A stretch of 64,000 nucleotides of DNA from Flavobacterium sp. 1. GTDB taxonomy: Bacteria; Bacteroidota; Bacteroidia; Flavobacteriales; Flavobacteriaceae. A program made the translations under genes and the position numbers. The DNA lies in assembly GCF_002797935.1 (NCBI RefSeq), contig NZ_PGER01000001.1:2666001-2730000 (forward strand), written 5' to 3'. The notes beneath the pieces are model-generated. The model saw only the letters and a list, made by a program, of their open reading frames with translations, was not told where the DNA came from and did no database searches. This document shows, in pieces, positions 17,601 to 39,084 of the stretch; position 1 is the first letter of the stretch, and the number at the start of each line of letters is the position of its first letter.

Positions 17601-20600
17601 ATGAAAAAAATTATTTTTTTTACGATAAAAAGCATGCAAAAATTTTGCATTTCTTTTTCCTGTTTCCTCAAAACAGGCATTTCAAAATTTAGCTTCACAA
17701 TTCCTTTAAATCAGCCATTAAAACTATGGCCTATCCATTGGCGTCAAAGCCTTTCCCTGCCTATAGTTTTTTTAGTAATTCTCATGAACAGTTACACTGC
17801 TGTACATGCACAAAACATTAAAGGAATTATCCCAGTCGTATCACCTGCTGCAGGAGATGCAATTGATGGAGATTTTTGGGCTCATCAGCCCATAGGAACT
17901 AATTTTGAAAAAGTTGGTGATTTGTTTGACGATCGATATAATCCTGGCAGTCCAGCTTATGATCCCAATAATCCAACTAATATGCACAACATCAATCATG
18001 GATTGATTGATCCTGTTACAGGTAATGTCGTATACAAACCAAATCCTGTTACAGACCCTCCTACTCCTCAGAGTATTCCCGTGACCTATCAAATAAAAGA
18101 TCGTTATACAGATGATCTTACGATATTCACGCTTTCCAATAAAATAAACGACAATCCTAACACCTATACATGGGGTCCTGGATCATCTCCAAACAAAAAT
18201 GAAATCCAAAATTGCGGGGCTCATTTTAGTTATGGTGATCCAGCTATAAAAGGCGGTGTAACAAATGCAACTGGTAACTTTATCAGTCCTTCACCCCCTG
18301 GAGGAGTTTCGGGATCAGCAACTGATTTATGGTGTATGTTTGCAGGTGACCGTCAGGTAACCAATGGTAGCAGTTACATCGATTTTGAATTTCTGCAAGC
18401 TCCCTTAACTATGACAGGCGCTACTTATGGCCCTCCTGATCCCTTTACAGGTGTAGCTCCAATCACTGGAGGCAGCGGTGTATTTCATACCGCAGCGCCT
18501 GATGCAACTGGTGGCCGTACCCCTGGCGACATATTGATTACCATTGAGTTTACCCAAGGTGGTGGTGATGCAAATGTTGTAATTCGACAATGGAAACTAG
18601 TTGGTTCAGCTTACGAATATGTTGTTATTCCCAACACAGTTTTTCCTGGATTAATTTTTTGTACCAATAATAATGTAACCACTACAGTTCCATTTGATGC
18701 TTTTGGAGTTAATCCTGGTGTATATGCACCAAATCAATGGGCTGAAGGAGCCATAAATCTTACTCAGGTATTGACATACTTAAATAATCCGTGTACTTCA
18801 ATCAGCACGCTGTTTATTCGAACCAGATCCTCTGGAAGCTCATCTCAATCTGAATTAAAAGATTTCCCTGGAGCACCTATTCAATTGAATTTGGATTTCA
18901 GACCAAGCCCACCAACTACAACTGGCGCAACAGTTTGCGGTCCAGGCCCAGTGCAAGTAAATCTTTCAGCCAGTGGCTGTCCTGGAGGAACACTAAAATG
19001 GTATGATGCAGCTACAGCTGGCACAAAAGTAAATGAGGGACTCACCTATAGCCCAACCATTTCTGCAACTACCAGTTATTGGGTAAGCTGTACCAGTGCT
19101 TCAGGTTGCGAAGGCCCGAGAACTCAAGTTACAGCAACTGTAAATACTGTAAATCCAGGCGTAATAGCTGGAAATCAAACACTCTGTACTCCATTTGACC
19201 CTGCAGCATTTACCAATACTACACCGGGAAGCGGTAGCGCAGGAGGCGAGATTACTTATCAATGGCAAATTAGCACAACAGGCTGTGATGGCACTTGGGC
19301 AAACATCCAAGGAGCCACATCTGCAACTTATGATGCGGGTGCAGTAGCTGTGATAACTAATTTCCGAAGAGTAGCAACTGCAACACTCAATGGCGTTACT
19401 TGTTCTGCAAACAGCAACTGTTTGATAGTAACTCCAAACCCTATAACTCCTGGAGCAATTGCTGGAGACCAAATCGGATGTTCACCATTTGATGCGGCTG
19501 CATTTACCAGCACTACACCGGGAAGCTCTACAGGAGCTGGAGTAATCTCTTACCAATGGCAAATTAGCACAACAGGCTGTGACGGCACTTGGGCAAATAT
19601 CCAAGGAGCGACATCTGCAACTTATGATGCGCCATCGGTAACTGCCATAACTAATTTCCGAAGAGTCGCTACTTCAACGCTCAACGGTGTTGCCTGTTCT
19701 GCAAACAGTAATTGTTTGACAGTGACTCCAACCGGAATAGTTCCGGGTGAAATTGCCGGAAGCCAAACTCTTTGTTCTCCTTTTGATCCTGCAGCATTTA
19801 CCAGTGTTACACCTGGTTCTGACCATGGTACAATTACTTACCAATGGCAAAGCAGTACTAATGGAACAACTTTCACTAACATACTTGGTGCGACATCACC
19901 AACTTATGATGCACCTGCCGTGGCCGTTAAAACTTGGTTCCGAAGAGTCGCTTCTTCTGATGTGGGCTGTTCTGGAAACAGTAATGTTTTGGCAGTAACG
20001 CCAAACGATATTGCTCCGGGAGCAATCGCTGGTGACCAAACTCTCTGTACTCCTTTTGACCCTGCAGCATTTACCAATACTACACCGGGAAGCACTGCAA
20101 ACGGAGGCGTAATCTCTTATCAATGGCAATGGAGCACAACTGGATGTGACGGTACTTGGGCAAATATCCAAGGTGCAACATCTGCAACTTATGATGCGGG
20201 TGCAGTAGCTATGATTACCAATTTCCGAAGAGTAGCAACTTCAACGCTCAATGGCGTTGCCTGTTCTGCAAACAGCAACTGTTTGACAGTAACTCCAAAT
20301 GCTATAAGTCCAGGAGCAATCGCTGGAGACCAAATCGGATGTTCCCCATTTGATGCGGCAGCATTTACCAGCACTACACCAGGAAGCTCTACAGGAGCAG
20401 GAGTAATCTCTTACCAATGGCAATGGAGTACCAATGGCTGTGACGGCACTTGGGCAAATATCCAAGGAGCAACATCTGCCACTTATGATGCGCCATCGGT
20501 ATCTGTTACAACTAATTTCCGAAGAGTCGCTACTTCAACGCTCAACGGTGTTGCCTGTTCTGCAAACAGCAATTGTTTGACAGTGACTCCAACCGGAATA

Positions 20601-33603: not shown

Positions 33604-36467
33604 CTACATATTTCTTCTATACTGTCCTCCTACTTCAAACAAAGCTTCAGTTATTTGACCTAAAGAGCAAACTTTTGTAGCCTCCATCAAGTGTTCAAAT
33701 AAATTATCTCCTTTAATTGCAGCCTCCTGAAGTGTGCCTAAATGTTCTTTTACCAAATCGGCATGACATTGATGCAGATTATCCAGCATTGTAATTTGGT
33801 ATTGTTTTTCTTCTTCAGTTGCACGAATTACTTCTGCAGGAATTACTGTTGGAGAGCCTTTGGAACTCAAGAACGTATTTACGCCCACAATCGGGAATTC
33901 ACCAGTATGTTTCAATGTTTCATAATACAGACTTTCCTCCTGGATTTTTGAACGCTGATACATGGTTTCCATTGCGCCAAGCACTCCTCCTCGTTCGGTA
34001 ATTCGATCAAATTCCTGTAAAACGGCATCTTCAACTAAGTCGGTCAATTCTTCAATTATGAATGAACCCTGAATAGGATTTTCATTTTTGGCAAGACCTA
34101 ACTCTTTATTGATAATCAACTGAATTGCCATTGCTCTACGCACCGATTCCTCTGTTGGTGTCGTAATCGCTTCGTCATAAGCATTGGTATGCAATGAATT
34201 ACAGTTGTCATATATTGCATATAAAGCCTGCAGCGTTGTACGAATATCATTGAAATCTATTTCCTGAGCGTGCAATGAACGTCCCGAAGTTTGAATATGG
34301 TATTTCAGCATCTGGGCTCTTTCATTGGCGCCGTATTTATTTTTCATGGCTTTCGCCCAAATTTTTCTAGCTACACGGCCTATTACAGCATATTCCGGAT
34401 CGACACCATTTGAGAAAAAGAATGATAAATTAGGTCCAAAATCGTTGATATCCATTCCACGGCTCAAATAATATTCTACATAAGTGAAACCGTTTGAAAG
34501 CGTGAAAGCTAATTGCGTGATTGGATTAGCTCCAGCCTCGGCAATATGATAACCAGAAATTGATACCGAATAAAAGTTTCTGACATTTTGAGCAATAAAA
34601 TATTCCTGAACGTCTCCCATCAAGCGCAATGCAAATTCAGTTGAGAAAATACAAGTGTTTTGTGCTTGGTCTTCTTTTAGAATATCGGCTTGAACTGTTC
34701 CTCTGACTTTTTTGAGTGTTTTGGCTTTTATTTTATCATATACATCCAAAGGCAATACCTGATCTCCCGTAACTCCTAAAAGAAACAATCCTAAACCATT
34801 ATTTCCTTCAGGCAGATCGCCCTGATAATGCGGGCGTTCTACTCCTTTTTCTTTGTAAATTTTGTTGATTATATCAGTAACCTCATCTTCAAGGTTATTT
34901 TCTTGAATATAATGTTCACACTGCTGATCGATAGCCGCATTCATAAAGAATCCAAGCAGCATAGGTGCAGGGCCATTAATGGTCATACTCACAGATGTCA
35001 TTGCATGAACTAAATCGAATCCTGAATATAGTTTTTTAGCATCATCCAAACAGCAGATTGAAACCCCAGCATTTCCAATTTTACCATAAATATCGGGGCG
35101 AATGTGCGGATCATTTCCATACAAAGTTACACTGTCAAAAGCAGTAGAAAGTCTCTTGGCAGGCAATCCTGCACTTACATAATGAAAACGTTTGTTCGTT
35201 CTTTCGGGTCCGCCTTCGCCAGCAAACATACGGGACGGATCTTCTCCATCACGCTTAAAAGGATACAAACCAGAAGCAAAAGGAAATTCTCCAGGAACAT
35301 TTTCCTGTAAACACCAGCGCAAAATATCTCCCCAAGCTTTGTACTTAGGCATCGATACTTTTGGAATTTGAGAATGCGACAGCGACTCTGTATGCGTTGC
35401 CATTTTTATTTCTTTGTCTCGAACTTTAAACGTATATACTGGATTTTTATATTGGCTTACTTTTTCATCCCAATTCAAAATCATTTCCCAATTGTAGGGA
35501 TCCAAATCCATTTTTACTTTATCAAATTGATTTAGCAAAAGATTTAAAAAGATTTTATTATCAGCACCACTTGGTTTTTCAGATTCTAAAGCGCTTGGCA
35601 ATACCGAAACTTCATCAATTCCAGCTTTGTTAATCACGGGAACTTTTCCGGAAACACTTTCCAATGTTTTAAAAATCCCGTATAATTTTTGAGCTACTTG
35701 TTCTTGGTTCAAAGCTGTGGTGTCGTATTTTCTGTTATTTTCTGCAATTTCAGATAAGTAACGCGTTCTATGAGGCGGAATCACATAGATTTTCTCGCTC
35801 ATTTCACGGGTAATTTCAAAAGTTGATTTCAAATCAGAATCGGTTTTCTCCACTATTTTATCCATGATGGATTTATACAGCGTATTCATCCCCGGATCAT
35901 TGAATTGGGAAGCAATAGTTCCATAAACCGGCATTTGGTCTGGATTTACATCCCAAAGATTATGATTGCGCTGGTATTGTTTTTTCACATCGCGAATGGC
36001 ATCCAAAGCCCCACGTTTGTCGAATTTATTCAAGGCAACTAAATCGGCAAAATCGAGCATGTCTATTTTTTCCAATTGGGTTGCTGCACCAAATTCTGGT
36101 GTCATTACATATAAAGAAACATCGGAATGATCCATAATTTCCGTATCAGATTGCCCGATACCCGAAGTTTCTAGAATTATAATATCATATTTCGCCGCTT
36201 TCAAAACTTCTATAGCTTCGGCTACATATTTTGACAAGGCCAAATTAGATTGGCGTGTTGCCAATGAACGCATATACACTCTAGGATTATTTATCGCATT
36301 CATACGAATTCTGTCTCCTAGTAATGCACCTCCAGTTTTTCTTTTAGAAGGATCTACAGAAACTAACCCAATAGTTTTCTCTGGAAAATCGATTAAAAAA
36401 CGACGCACCAATTCGTCTACCAATGATGATTTTCCTGCACCGCCAGTTCCTGTGATTCCAAGAACAG
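33604..36467 (-). CDS. icmF: IcmF-type mutase, GTPase plus mutase part (frameshifted)
   Basis: The larger part of a fused coenzyme-B12 acyl-CoA mutase. Upstream of a TTG at 36423 the same frame carries the P-loop [12 protein letters not shown], so the real open frame reaches the break near 36470. A MeaB-like G-protein domain follows ([34 protein letters not shown]). Then comes a linker and the TIM-barrel mutase domain with [33 protein letters not shown] and [11 protein letters not shown]. IcmF isomerises isobutyryl- and n-butyryl-CoA (some members pivalyl-CoA) and has a built-in chaperone GTPase. As sequenced, it is separated from its B12-binding domain by a one-base frame change. Confidence 0.87.
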
Positions 36468-37070
36468 GAGCCCCCCCGCCCCCGAAGGGGGAGTTGCAGA
36501 TAATGGCGTGAATACTTTATGAAAATCTTGTGGATTGTTTTCTGCCAATGAAATTAATCGCGCAATGGTGTTTACATCTTTACTTAGTAAATTATTTGCA
36601 ATCTCAGAAACTCCCCCTTCGGGGGCTGGGGGGCTGAAATCAGAACGTTCAACTAAATCATTGATCATTCCCTGCAGTCCCATCGCACGGCCATCATCTG
36701 GAGCATAAATTCTGGTGATTCCGTAGGCTTGCAATTCGGCTATTTCCGATGGCAGGATTACGCCTCCTCCTCCTCCAAAAATCTTGATATGACCTGCTCC
36801 TTTTTCTTGAAGCAAATCATACATGTATTTAAAATATTCGTTGTGTCCTCCCTGATAGGAAGTCATGGCAATGGCATTAGCATCTTCCTGAATCGCGGTG
36901 TTTACCACTTCCTCAACACTTCTGTCATGACCCAGATGAATTACTTCAACTCCTGTGGACTGAATAATCCTTCTCATTATATTAATTGCTGCATCGTGAC
37001 CATCAAAGAGAGATGCGGCAGTTACGATTCGGACTTTATTTACGGGTACGTACGGCTTAATTAATTCCAT
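36417..37070 (-). CDS. icmF: IcmF-type mutase, B12-binding N-terminal part (frameshifted)
   Basis: The first 217 residues of the same gene, with the true ATG at 37070. The cobalamin-binding domain shows [16 protein letters not shown] (axial His25), [29 protein letters not shown] and [10 protein letters not shown]. After about residue 140 the linker contains [10 protein letters not shown], encoded by a GC-rich palindrome, and the frame ends shortly after a second palindrome (TPPSGAGG) in non-native sequence. Neighbouring genes are unrelated, so a complete fused enzyme was presumably intended. Confidence 0.87.
36468..36495. repeat. GC-rich palindromic element inside icmF, copy 1
   Basis: A 28-bp GC-rich block with core CCCCCGAAGGGGG, in strong contrast to the AT-rich gene. 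It includes the C7 run (36471-36477) at which the reading frame changes. 26 of 28 bases match copy 2 in inverted orientation. Confidence 0.85.
36609..36636. repeat. GC-rich palindromic element inside icmF, copy 2
   Basis: The same 28-bp element, inverted relative to copy 1, read in frame as part of the linker ([10 protein letters not shown]). It lies in the linker between the B12-binding and GTPase domains. Confidence 0.85.
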
Positions 37071-37397
37071 TTTATGAATATGATAATTTAATAGTGCAAT
37101 TTACATAAATTTTAAAATAAAAATCATTAAAAACAATATAAAACATAAAATATGACAACAATGTTTTTTCCTAAGAAAACAAGGCTGTTTTGATAAAAAA
37201 TTGGTATTTTCGAGGTCTAGCCCCGATAAAAATGATTTAAGATTTTTGATTAACAATATTTGATTTTTGAAGTTTTAAAACTCGTAAAACCAAAAATATT
37301 TAAGTTTAACAGCACAAAATCTAATATCAGAAATCGTTAATCATTATTCAAAAATCCATAGGAATTGCTCCTAATTATTTTAGAAAATTTAAAACAA
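37071..37397. other. Intergenic region between icmF and purU
   Basis: About 330 AT-rich bases between divergent genes. TCTAGCCCCGATA at about 37215 resembles the outer arm of the hairpin element at 53889 and may be a remnant. The rest is low-complexity TTTTTGA/AAATATT words. Confidence 0.4.
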
Positions 37398-38252
37398 ATG
37401 CAAAGAATTACCATACTTATCCATTGTGAAGATAAAAAAGCGATTGTTGCCTCAGTAACAAATTATATAGCTTCGATTGATGGAAATATTATTTACTTAG
37501 ACCAACATGTTGACGCCGATGAAAATGTGTTTTTTATGCGATTGGAATGTGAATTTAGTAAACTCAATTGGAATATTGAATCTATTAAAAGTCACTTTCA
37601 AGACAATCTTGCCACTCCTTTCAATATGACCTGGGCGATGTATCCTCAGGATCAAAAACCAAAAATGGCGCTGTTTATATCAAAATACGATCACTGTCTG
37701 TATGACATTTTAGGACGTTACTGCGCTGGTGAACTGCCTCTTGAAATTCCTTTAATCATAAGCAATCACGAAGATTTAAAACCAGTTGCCGAGCGTTTTG
37801 ACATTCCTTTTTATCATGTCCCTTTTACAAAAGACAGCAAAGAGGAGGGTGAAAAAGCCCAGATTGAATTATTAAAAAAGTTTGATATTGATTTTATAGT
37901 TTTGGCCCGCTATATGCAGATTATCACTCCAAATTTAATATCCCTTTACAAAAACAGAATCATCAACATCCATCACTCTTTCCTGCCGGCATTCCCAGGA
38001 GCAAAACCGTATCACTCAGCTTTCAAGCGCGGCGTAAAAATTATAGGTGCCACAAGCCATTATGTTACCGAAGAGTTAGACGAAGGACCAATTATCGAGC
38101 AAGACATTTCGAGAGTTTCCCACAGCCATTCCATAGAAGATTTTATCATGAAAGGACGCGACTTGGAACGTATCGTACTCGCTAGAGCCATAAAATTACA
38201 TGCCGAAAGAAAAACGATGGTGTACAATAATAAAACGGTCGTATTTTCTTAA
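37398..38252 (+). CDS. purU: Formyltetrahydrofolate deformylase
   Basis: A 284-residue cytoplasmic enzyme that hydrolyses 10-formyl-THF to formate and THF, balancing one-carbon pools and feeding formate to purine synthesis. The ATG at 37398 gives MQRITILIHCEDKKAIV, the start of the N-terminal ACT domain (about 1-85). The C-terminal formyltransferase-fold domain shows the catalytic region INIHHSFLPAFPGAKPYH (Asn190, His192) and SHYVTEELDEGPIIEQD (catalytic Asp). Length is standard. It is monocistronic, divergent from icmF. Confidence 0.93.
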   Translation: MQRITILIHCEDKKAIVASVTNYIASIDGNIIYLDQHVDADENVFFMRLECEFSKLNWNIESIKSHFQDNLATPFNMTWAMYPQDQKPKMALFISKYDHCLYDILGRYCAGELPLEIPLIISNHEDLKPVAERFDIPFYHVPFTKDSKEEGEKAQIELLKKFDIDFIVLARYMQIITPNLISLYKNRIINIHHSFLPAFPGAKPYHSAFKRGVKIIGATSHYVTEELDEGPIIEQDISRVSHSHSIEDFIMKGRDLERIVLARAIKLHAERKTMVYNNKTVVFS

Positions 38253-38355
38253 TCCTTTTTACAAATAATTTTCGGCAGGAAAACTGCACTCAATAATTAA
38301 TATTTCAAAGCTAACAGCTGTCTCTATATCAACTGACAGCTAAATTAAAACAAAA

Positions 38356-39084
38356 ATGAAAAAAGCCCTACTCCTACTCTTGATCCTACCAGCAATCAGC
38401 AACGCACAATTCAAAGACATTTTAAAAAAAGCGACAGATAAAGTAAATGCTGTTACAAACTCGAACAGCGGTTTAGATATTGCCGCTGGATTAAAAGAAG
38501 CGCTGAACAAAGGAGTTACTGAACAAGTTTCCAAACTAACTGCAATGGATGGTTTTTATAAAAATGAAGCGGTAAAAATTCTAATGCCGGAAGAATTAGC
38601 AAAACTGGACAAAACTTTGCGAAAAATGGGTATGTCAAAATTGGCCGATGAAGGAATTCTGTCCATGAACAGAGCTGCCGAAGATGCCGTAAAAGAAGCA
38701 ACGCCAATATTTGTATCAGCTATCAAAAACATGACCATAACCGATGCTAAAGGTATTTTGCTTGGAAATGAAAATGCTGCAACTGTTTATCTGCAGTCGG
38801 CTACTACAACTTCATTATATTCCAAATTCAATCCTGTCGTTCAGCAGTCTATTGGTAAAGTTGGTGCTGATGTGATTTGGGCAAAAATTATAAAGCAATA
38901 CAATACCATACCGTTTGTAACCAAAGTAAACCCTGACCTTACCGATTATGTAACTAAAAAAGCTCTCGATGGTGTTTTTAAAATGATCACTGTTGAAGAA
39001 AAAAACATTAGAACTGACATCAATGCCAGAACATCGAATATTTTAAAGAAAGTATTTTCGCTTCAGGATAAAAAGCAGCAATAG
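38356..39084 (+). CDS. Exported DUF4197-domain protein
   Basis: A 242-residue exported protein. The signal peptide (MKKALLLLLILPAIS, cleavage near NAQ) is followed by the DUF4197 pattern: GLKEALNKGVTEQVSKL, GFYKNEAVKILMPEEL, MNRAAEDAVKEATPIF, MTITDAKGILLGNENAATVYL and YVTKKALDGVFKMI. It is predicted to be largely alpha-helical. The family is widespread in Bacteroidota and Proteobacteria, and its biochemical role is unknown to me. It stands alone. Confidence 0.9.
   Translation: MKKALLLLLILPAISNAQFKDILKKATDKVNAVTNSNSGLDIAAGLKEALNKGVTEQVSKLTAMDGFYKNEAVKILMPEELAKLDKTLRKMGMSKLADEGILSMNRAAEDAVKEATPIFVSAIKNMTITDAKGILLGNENAATVYLQSATTTSLYSKFNPVVQQSIGKVGADVIWAKIIKQYNTIPFVTKVNPDLTDYVTKKALDGVFKMITVEEKNIRTDINARTSNILKKVFSLQDKKQQ

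Follow-up and report, generated by a model that had tools for sequence, protein, structure and literature searches.

The icmF gene of Flavobacterium sp. 1 lies in the window (the whole stretch of DNA analysed here, 64 kb) in two pieces whose frames do not join, and its interdomain linker carries two GC-rich palindromes facing each other, one of them at the point where the frame is lost. The locus poses three questions: what the palindromes are, how they came to lie within the coding sequence of a conserved enzyme, and whether the gene is really broken. Loci and genomes are referred to below by our L and G numbers where they need to be told apart.

The palindrome pair in the icmF linker

On re-alignment, the two inverted 28-bp copies were identical at 26 of 28 nt, the same figure as in the initial annotation of this DNA, and inverted arms of 37 nt (36469-36505 and 36599-36635) show 86% complementarity. 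Their placement in the linker was also confirmed, since the Pfam matches to the B12-binding domain (PF02310) and to the MeaB/mutase part (PF03308, PF01642) flank the pair. The translations bear out that one copy is read in frame and that the other holds a run of seven C, at which the frames of the two icmF pieces part (Table 1).

With at most two mismatches allowed, two matches to the core CCCCCGAAGGGGG lie in the window where 0.15 would be expected, and none of 100 shuffled windows contained two cores; a chance origin was therefore rejected. When the 64 kb were scanned for GC-rich hairpins having CCC or GGG in an arm, the icmF pair and one weaker match, at 17877-17892, came up. Folded as RNA, a 173-nt stretch forms a single long hairpin (-72.1 kcal/mol, z -6.9). 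A known RNA was rejected as the identity of the palindromes, because no Rfam family reached its gathering score in 35000-38500.

Table 1. Features of the icmF locus, in coordinates of the window.
Feature	Position	Strand	Basis
icmF, first piece: B12-binding domain and linker, up to the frame break	36417..37070	-	PF02310, E 5.4e-14
icmF, second piece: MeaB-like GTPase and mutase domains	33604..36423	-	PF03308, PF01642
REP copy, linker site A, with an in-frame 10-residue reading	36609..36636	-	translation, core match, 26/28 identity
REP copy, linker site B (inverted), with the C7 run 36471-36477 at the frame break	36468..36495	+	
Cassette interior: native IcmF helix	36496..36608	-	comparison with relatives and solved IcmF
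Whole REP-helix-REP cassette, replacing the plain linker of REP-free relatives	36468..36636	none	

A repeat family of the genome and the genus

The genome search that had been proposed as a check on the pair found the exact core 10 times in the host genome (5.35 Mb, one contig, rated 100% complete), so the possibility that there are no other copies is false; a reversed control pattern gave no match in the same genome. Half of the 10 cores are coding (two in icmF and one each in metH, leuS and the gene of a UvrD-like helicase), and the other five lie outside frames of at least 100 aa, namely in a gap between trpE-like and trpG-like genes, in the hisG/hisD gap, in L003 and twice in L005. The core is also present in 69 of 199 genomes of the genus, a sample which was drawn from a larger group and includes some MAG-like genomes.

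The matches listed in the genus contain 150 copies, and neighbouring cores at most 500 bp apart form 26 pairs, 25 of which are oriented + then - and one - -. The spacing of the inverted pairs is 38-134 bp in 22 cases and 404-416 bp in three. Because 25 of the 26 close neighbours are inverted pairs, we conclude that the CCCCCGAAGGGGG repeats, and with them the icmF-type palindromes, are REP dimers. No exact core lies within 500 bp of 98 of the 150 copies, and partners with variant cores exist. The repeat unit reads about AGCCCCC-spacer-CCCCCGAAGGGGG-A, and no GTAG or CGTC tetranucleotide tag was seen by eye in the family copies inspected.

Two further observations concern biosynthetic and tRNA synthetase genes. 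A REP pair lies between IGPD (hisB-like) and GATase (hisH-like) genes in L014, L016 and L018 (G174, G150 and G112; about 1990-2140), these genes being assigned by Pfam on L016; through one copy the GATase has SPPSGAGG, or a variant of it, close to its N-terminus, and the other copy lies upstream of the GATase gene. The host genome also contains a second palindrome family, CCCCTCCGAAGGAGGGG: one copy adjoins the start of a trpG-like gene (L001, 1937-1953), and another, within leuS (L004, 1245-1261), is translated in frame as SPPSEGLGE.

Apparent exchange of the linker between icmF genes

The view that icmF tolerates the palindromes in frame holds good in G102, whose gene (L008) has the same pair in the same places within an intact frame of 1151 aa. 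More widely, palindrome-coded peptides were recognized by eye at both linker sites in 9 of 80 IcmF loci, which are named records sampled with a REP-bearing query, so that frequencies are biased. As such loops recur in scattered species at both sites and come from several palindrome families, a strain-specific insert is not supported. The two copies look like the ends of one block that is exchanged between species, and not like two unrelated strain-specific inserts, a possibility that the initial annotation had put forward for checking. A linker conserved in distant Bacteroidota, which that annotation named as a refutation, does not describe what was seen: loops coded by palindromes do recur in scattered species, but by eye they belong to several different palindrome families.

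The hairpins are associated with one form of the linker helix. Exact stems of any GC-rich family were sought in the distinct IcmF linkers of the sample drawn with the REP-bearing query (two loci gave no linker), and hairpins were found at one or both sites in 14 of 40 linkers of the NTIAR type, 0 of 71 of the TAIAR type and 0 of 8 unclassed ones, two of the 14 (L249 and L251) not looking like REPs. In a sample of this kind, then, palindromes are not unusual in this linker, which modifies the initial annotation's view of them as rare. In the solved IcmF structure 4xc6, the helix can be aligned by sequence and the palindromic loops are absent. A conserved feature of IcmF is not supported by these hairpin counts or by 4xc6.

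We built a quick tree, without bootstrap, of the IcmF protein from which the linker had been removed. REP-bearing rows (11 of 82) require 8 changes of label, gain and loss not being told apart, and at least 6 of the changes are forced by starred branches. Shuffled labels gave a mean of 10.5 changes, and 7 of 500 shuffles were as low as the observed value; since the label is somewhat clustered, part of the REP distribution may be inherited.

The edges of the exchanged part are sharp. In the gene pairs L022/L072, L023/L091, L021/L066 and L024/L094, and in L008 with three relatives, DNA identity in 30-nt bins is 16-71% over the cassette and recovers within about one bin; the bins beside the cassette, like most others, are at 80-100% for the most part, the lowest of the others being 60%. 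The window shows a drop of the same shape against L056 and L063, with lower identity in the flanks, and the REP-free control pairs L039/L043 and L066/L072 show no drop at the linker in such bins. The window's domains around the cassette are 94-98% identical to the REP-free Flavobacterium-type IcmFs compared, whereas the interior of its cassette is 50-66% identical to REP-bearing IcmFs and 34-37% at best to the plain Flavobacterium type; against L082, which has no clear REP, the interior is 53% identical. The gene is thus a mosaic, and we infer that an act of transfer, directed into a Flavobacterium-type icmF, produced it. Taken together, the tree, bin, identity, hairpin and 4xc6 comparisons show the helix to be native to IcmF and the palindromes not to be, and all three appear to move together.

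The same mosaic might have arisen if the palindromes were passive REP inserts and transferred icmF DNA had replaced linkers through homologous recombination of the ordinary short-tract kind. The linker would then stand out as the most variable part of the gene, and palindromes and nuclease (see below) would have no role. Recombination of this kind is suited by the highly conserved IcmF flanks, and further variable stretches do occur downstream in icmF, one of them about 1.4 kb into the gene in three pairs (L021/L066, L022/L072 and the window/L056); however, in the pairs compared, both edges of the swap lie no more than about one 30-nt bin away from the linker, the two REP-free control pairs show no linker swap, and the GC hairpins are tied to a single helix type. 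Nuclease-free intragenic REPs are already known (PMC3733652), which also favours this explanation, as does the result that no nuclease-bearing IcmF was found among the matches listed (342 of 397 family genomes match, some weakly; longest frame, 1239 aa). Ten genomes re-examined for a nuclease in icmF gave nine frames of 1111-1211 aa and one cut by the contig end. We regard short-tract recombination as rather unlikely, with the sharp edges and the helix type weighing against it.

Nuclease-type cassettes in other genes

A DUF559 domain lies beside CCCCCGAAGGGGG-family REPs in the metH and leuS genes of the host genome; leuS with the domain forms one open frame, and metH is broken at a C7 run. 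The domain (PF04480) was matched in 105 of 199 genomes of the genus, at least 51 of which carry it within a frame of 300 aa or longer, and in 170 of 296 genomes of a phylum sample, both in long frames and as a stand-alone protein. Among the matches listed, embedded DUF559 occurs in 42 of the 69 REP genomes versus 9 of the 130 others, where embedding means a hand-picked match of at least 60 bits in a frame of at least 300 aa, kinship is ignored, and the nuclease cassette itself brings REPs.

Seventy-two distinct DUF559 domains, from loci retrieved best matches first, were assigned to hosts by flanking motif: LeuRS (20), MetH site i (19), UvrD-like helicase (10), RecG (9, three of them first labelled "other"), MetH site ii (7), a second LeuRS site (1), Type ISP enzymes (3) and stand-alone copies (3). 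Pfam searches covered a single host each for MetH, LeuRS, UvrD-like helicase and RecG, together with the three Type ISP hosts. Of 66 embedded copies (three edge rows dropped), 60 have an exact-stem GC hairpin, of whichever GC-rich family, no further than 150 nt away on one side or both, and 38 have one on both sides, compared with 12 of 217 control windows that contain one; one of the three stand-alone copies has a hairpin, on one side. The domains cluster by host site: 11 label changes are needed, where the minimum would be 6 and shuffling gives 44.1 on average, a pattern that fits allelic homing. Some proteins carry more than one insert: two DUF559 inserts occur within one LeuRS frame in L165 (G016) and within one MetH frame each in L190 (G130) and L191 (G137). 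The domain also lies within Type ISP restriction-modification proteins in L189, L188 and L174, accompanied by palindrome-like peptides such as PPSEGCPQ and PPKEGN.

MetH site i allowed filled and empty alleles to be compared. Across 121 genomes the site is contiguous in 98 and split by the nuclease in 11, the others giving a partial match (1), weak matches (7) or none (4); in G101 the site is split and a partial contiguous piece lies on another contig. Thirty empty loci, the best matches to the host's own sequence, share one 18-residue pattern, LP[FY]IEA[AS]K[QR][AV]GDK[SQR]GNGK. The inserted stretch comprises 149-169 residues with Pro/Gly-rich ends, and between one filled and one empty allele, L115 and L194, identity per 30-nt bin is 80-100% as far as the insert. 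Searched as a protein, the DUF559 stretch of one MetH host gave 1427 matches of 0.55-1.75 times the query length; the 120 of them that were listed, several from named isolates, all contain PF04480, two with tRNA-synthetase families and the others with MetH families.

In the gene of the UvrD-like helicase, L006 of the host genome and L013, the latter with an intact frame, have a short pair lacking the nuclease at the place where other species (L128 and L153) have the nuclease; nuclease-free pairs can therefore occupy nuclease sites. We link the nuclease to the icmF cassette by analogy, because no nuclease form of icmF was found among the matches listed.

Six columns are conserved across 69 copies of the DUF559 domain (E15 in 69; D44, E55, D57 and D70 in 68 each; H61 in 66) and may represent the active site. 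With medians of dN/dS by site of 0.085-0.121 (72 pairs, 75-97% identical; range, 0.022-0.366; three Type ISP rows left out), the domain is under purifying selection. The closest solved structures by sequence are 3hrl ("Endonuclease-Like Protein", 1.5e-29) and 3r3p ("Mobile intron protein", 1.2e-6), the latter of which we take to be I-Bth0305I. EDxHD homology and conserved putative active-site residues are thus features of the DUF559 cassettes; icmF has no nuclease. At the nuclease sites the cassette is mostly less alike than its flanks, which weighs against the reading proposed below; it is the more alike in 36 of 386 within-site pairs (MetH site ii counts one place twice), and the Spearman correlation between cassette and flank identity is 0.09-0.42, except for 0.95 at MetH site ii (six pairs). 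Both results are compatible with movement apart from the host gene but do not prove it.

Proposed mechanism

We give somewhat better than even credence to the following combined reading: the inverted REP dimer forms the ends of a swapped icmF linker cassette, nuclease-type cassettes home in other genes, and the frame break is a homopolymer error. The two palindromes would be the two halves of one dimer bounding the cassette, and the GC-rich REPs, read as Pro/Gly-rich loops (PPAPEGG ... PPSGAGG), would be tolerated by the interdomain linker. The REP-helix-REP block would have passed several times from one icmF gene to another, each time taking the place of the linker and helix that stood between the conserved flanks. 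Similar palindromic ends in other genes would carry an in-frame EDxHD/Vsr-like putative nuclease domain (DUF559), which most likely drives its own cassettes by homing, in that the empty allele would be cut and the break repaired from the filled allele. The icmF cassette would belong to the nuclease-free kind, like the one in the gene of the UvrD-like helicase. Gene conversion, assisted in trans or through the long hairpin, is its probable way of moving; this is the weakest step. Both icmF and DUF559 cassettes would be mobile, judging from sequence comparison.

A broader generalization is offered tentatively, as one that we doubt somewhat more than we believe. Bacteroidota may harbour splice-less in-frame homing elements, in which an EDxHD/Vsr-like nuclease, bounded by inverted palindromes compatible with coding, invades loops and linkers of essential enzymes and stays in the mature protein; pairs like that of icmF would be nuclease-free derivatives that enclose a piece of host gene and owe their spread to the same process.

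The frame break at the C7 run

The break in icmF is very probably a homopolymer assembly error, and the gene in the organism is probably intact. Copies with seven C followed by G number four, all in the host genome and in three genes (icmF, metH and the helicase gene), and the frames part at them. In 29 other loci, 37 copies could be compared (some places being represented twice); their run lengths are different, and those inspected lie in open frames. A run of seven C also occurs in L021, where the spacer is another one and the frame is open. The host assembly (5.35 Mb) contains no C-run longer than seven, and 31 of 40 genomes have one, which is a weak point alone because 7 of 24 other genomes of the same genus likewise lack eight-C runs. 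Long G/C runs can slip, and the assembly is a single contig rated 100% complete, so that a real break, with icmF, metH and the helicase gene either being pseudogenes or rescued by slippage at the C-run, deserves consideration; however, the same run recurs four times, spread over three genes, in this single genome and at no other locus compared, and with no longer C-run in the assembly, we consider a real break quite improbable.

Relation to known systems

Intragenic REP dimers, suggested to lie in linkers and found in UvrD and recB as well, are already known (PMC3733652). In the open literature, judged mostly from search listings, we found no report of in-frame DUF559 cassettes with palindromic ends or of REP-bounded segment exchange. 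What the cassettes present is an EDxHD-related domain, with no sign of splicing, in LeuRS, MetH, RecG and UvrD-like helicase, flanked by REP-like palindromes. Through this association, REPs would have a possible mover other than RAYTs. The icmF locus suggests in addition that a pair of REPs can delimit a protein segment that is exchanged, and REP homopolymers may produce false frameshifts in assemblies.

A review lists EDxHD as a homing family and describes homing nucleases as usually occupying conserved genes within introns or inteins, which spares the host product (PMC3943268). DUF559 resembles EDxHD homing endonucleases such as I-Bth0305I in sequence and in being present or absent at one conserved site. 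It differs from them in staying in frame in the host protein, in being flanked by palindromes, and in having no intron or intein in the loci tested: no intron RNA family reached the gathering score in seven loci (five intact-frame nuclease hosts, L008 and L110). The sole Rfam match in these loci was a Flavo-1 RNA (RF01705; L153, 1387-1484, - strand), which lies just upstream of and opposite to the DUF559-bearing UvrD-like helicase gene. Like inteins, the cassettes insert a nuclease in frame into conserved enzymes; unlike inteins, they have no splicing (Hint) domain, no such Pfam family being matched at E <= 1e-4 in one MetH, LeuRS, UvrD-like and RecG host each, and at MetH site i they measure only the length given above.

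Known intragenic REPs and REP dimers, including RPE-4 and RPE-6 of Rickettsia, are described as short palindromes, often dimers, within ORFs; they are suggested to be tolerated in flexible linkers and loops, their targets include UvrD/Rep helicase and recBCD, and two Xanthomonas species have different REPs at about the same recB site (PMC3733652). The likeness to intragenic Rickettsia repeats noted in the initial annotation is borne out to this extent, in that our family likewise consists of short palindromes, often dimers, inside ORFs, with UvrD/Rep helicase among the targets. Compared with that description, the icmF family is without the GTAG/CGTC tag (by eye) and has native coding sequence between its copies, the whole block apparently being exchanged here, and at other genes a nuclease domain lies between the copies.

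REPINs mobilized by RAYTs are similar to the icmF pair in being inverted doublets, tens of bp apart, that fold into hairpins (PMC3116915). Insertion of the icmF pair by a RAYT (Y1 tyrosine transposase) as a classical REPIN would accord with this architecture of inverted pairs and short spacers and with the eight PF01797 matches in the host genome, but it is very improbable and RAYT mobilization was rejected for this genome, since a CCCCCGAAGGGGG-type hairpin is absent from all eight loci (each 3.2-3.4 kb long; two have other palindromes), the spacers of family copies differ among themselves (by eye), and that of icmF is native icmF sequence. A Y1-transposase (RAYT-like) gene does lie between two palindromes in L103, and these, GGGCTAAAGCCC at 1293-1306 and 2006-2019, are of a family different from the icmF repeat. 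A REPIN spacer would be expected to move as part of the element; in icmF the spacer is a native helix of the host protein, yet appears to move with its ends, so that this point tells neither for nor against a REPIN. The icmF family does differ from REPINs in that half of the host's cores are coding and that its spacer is variable and, in icmF, native.
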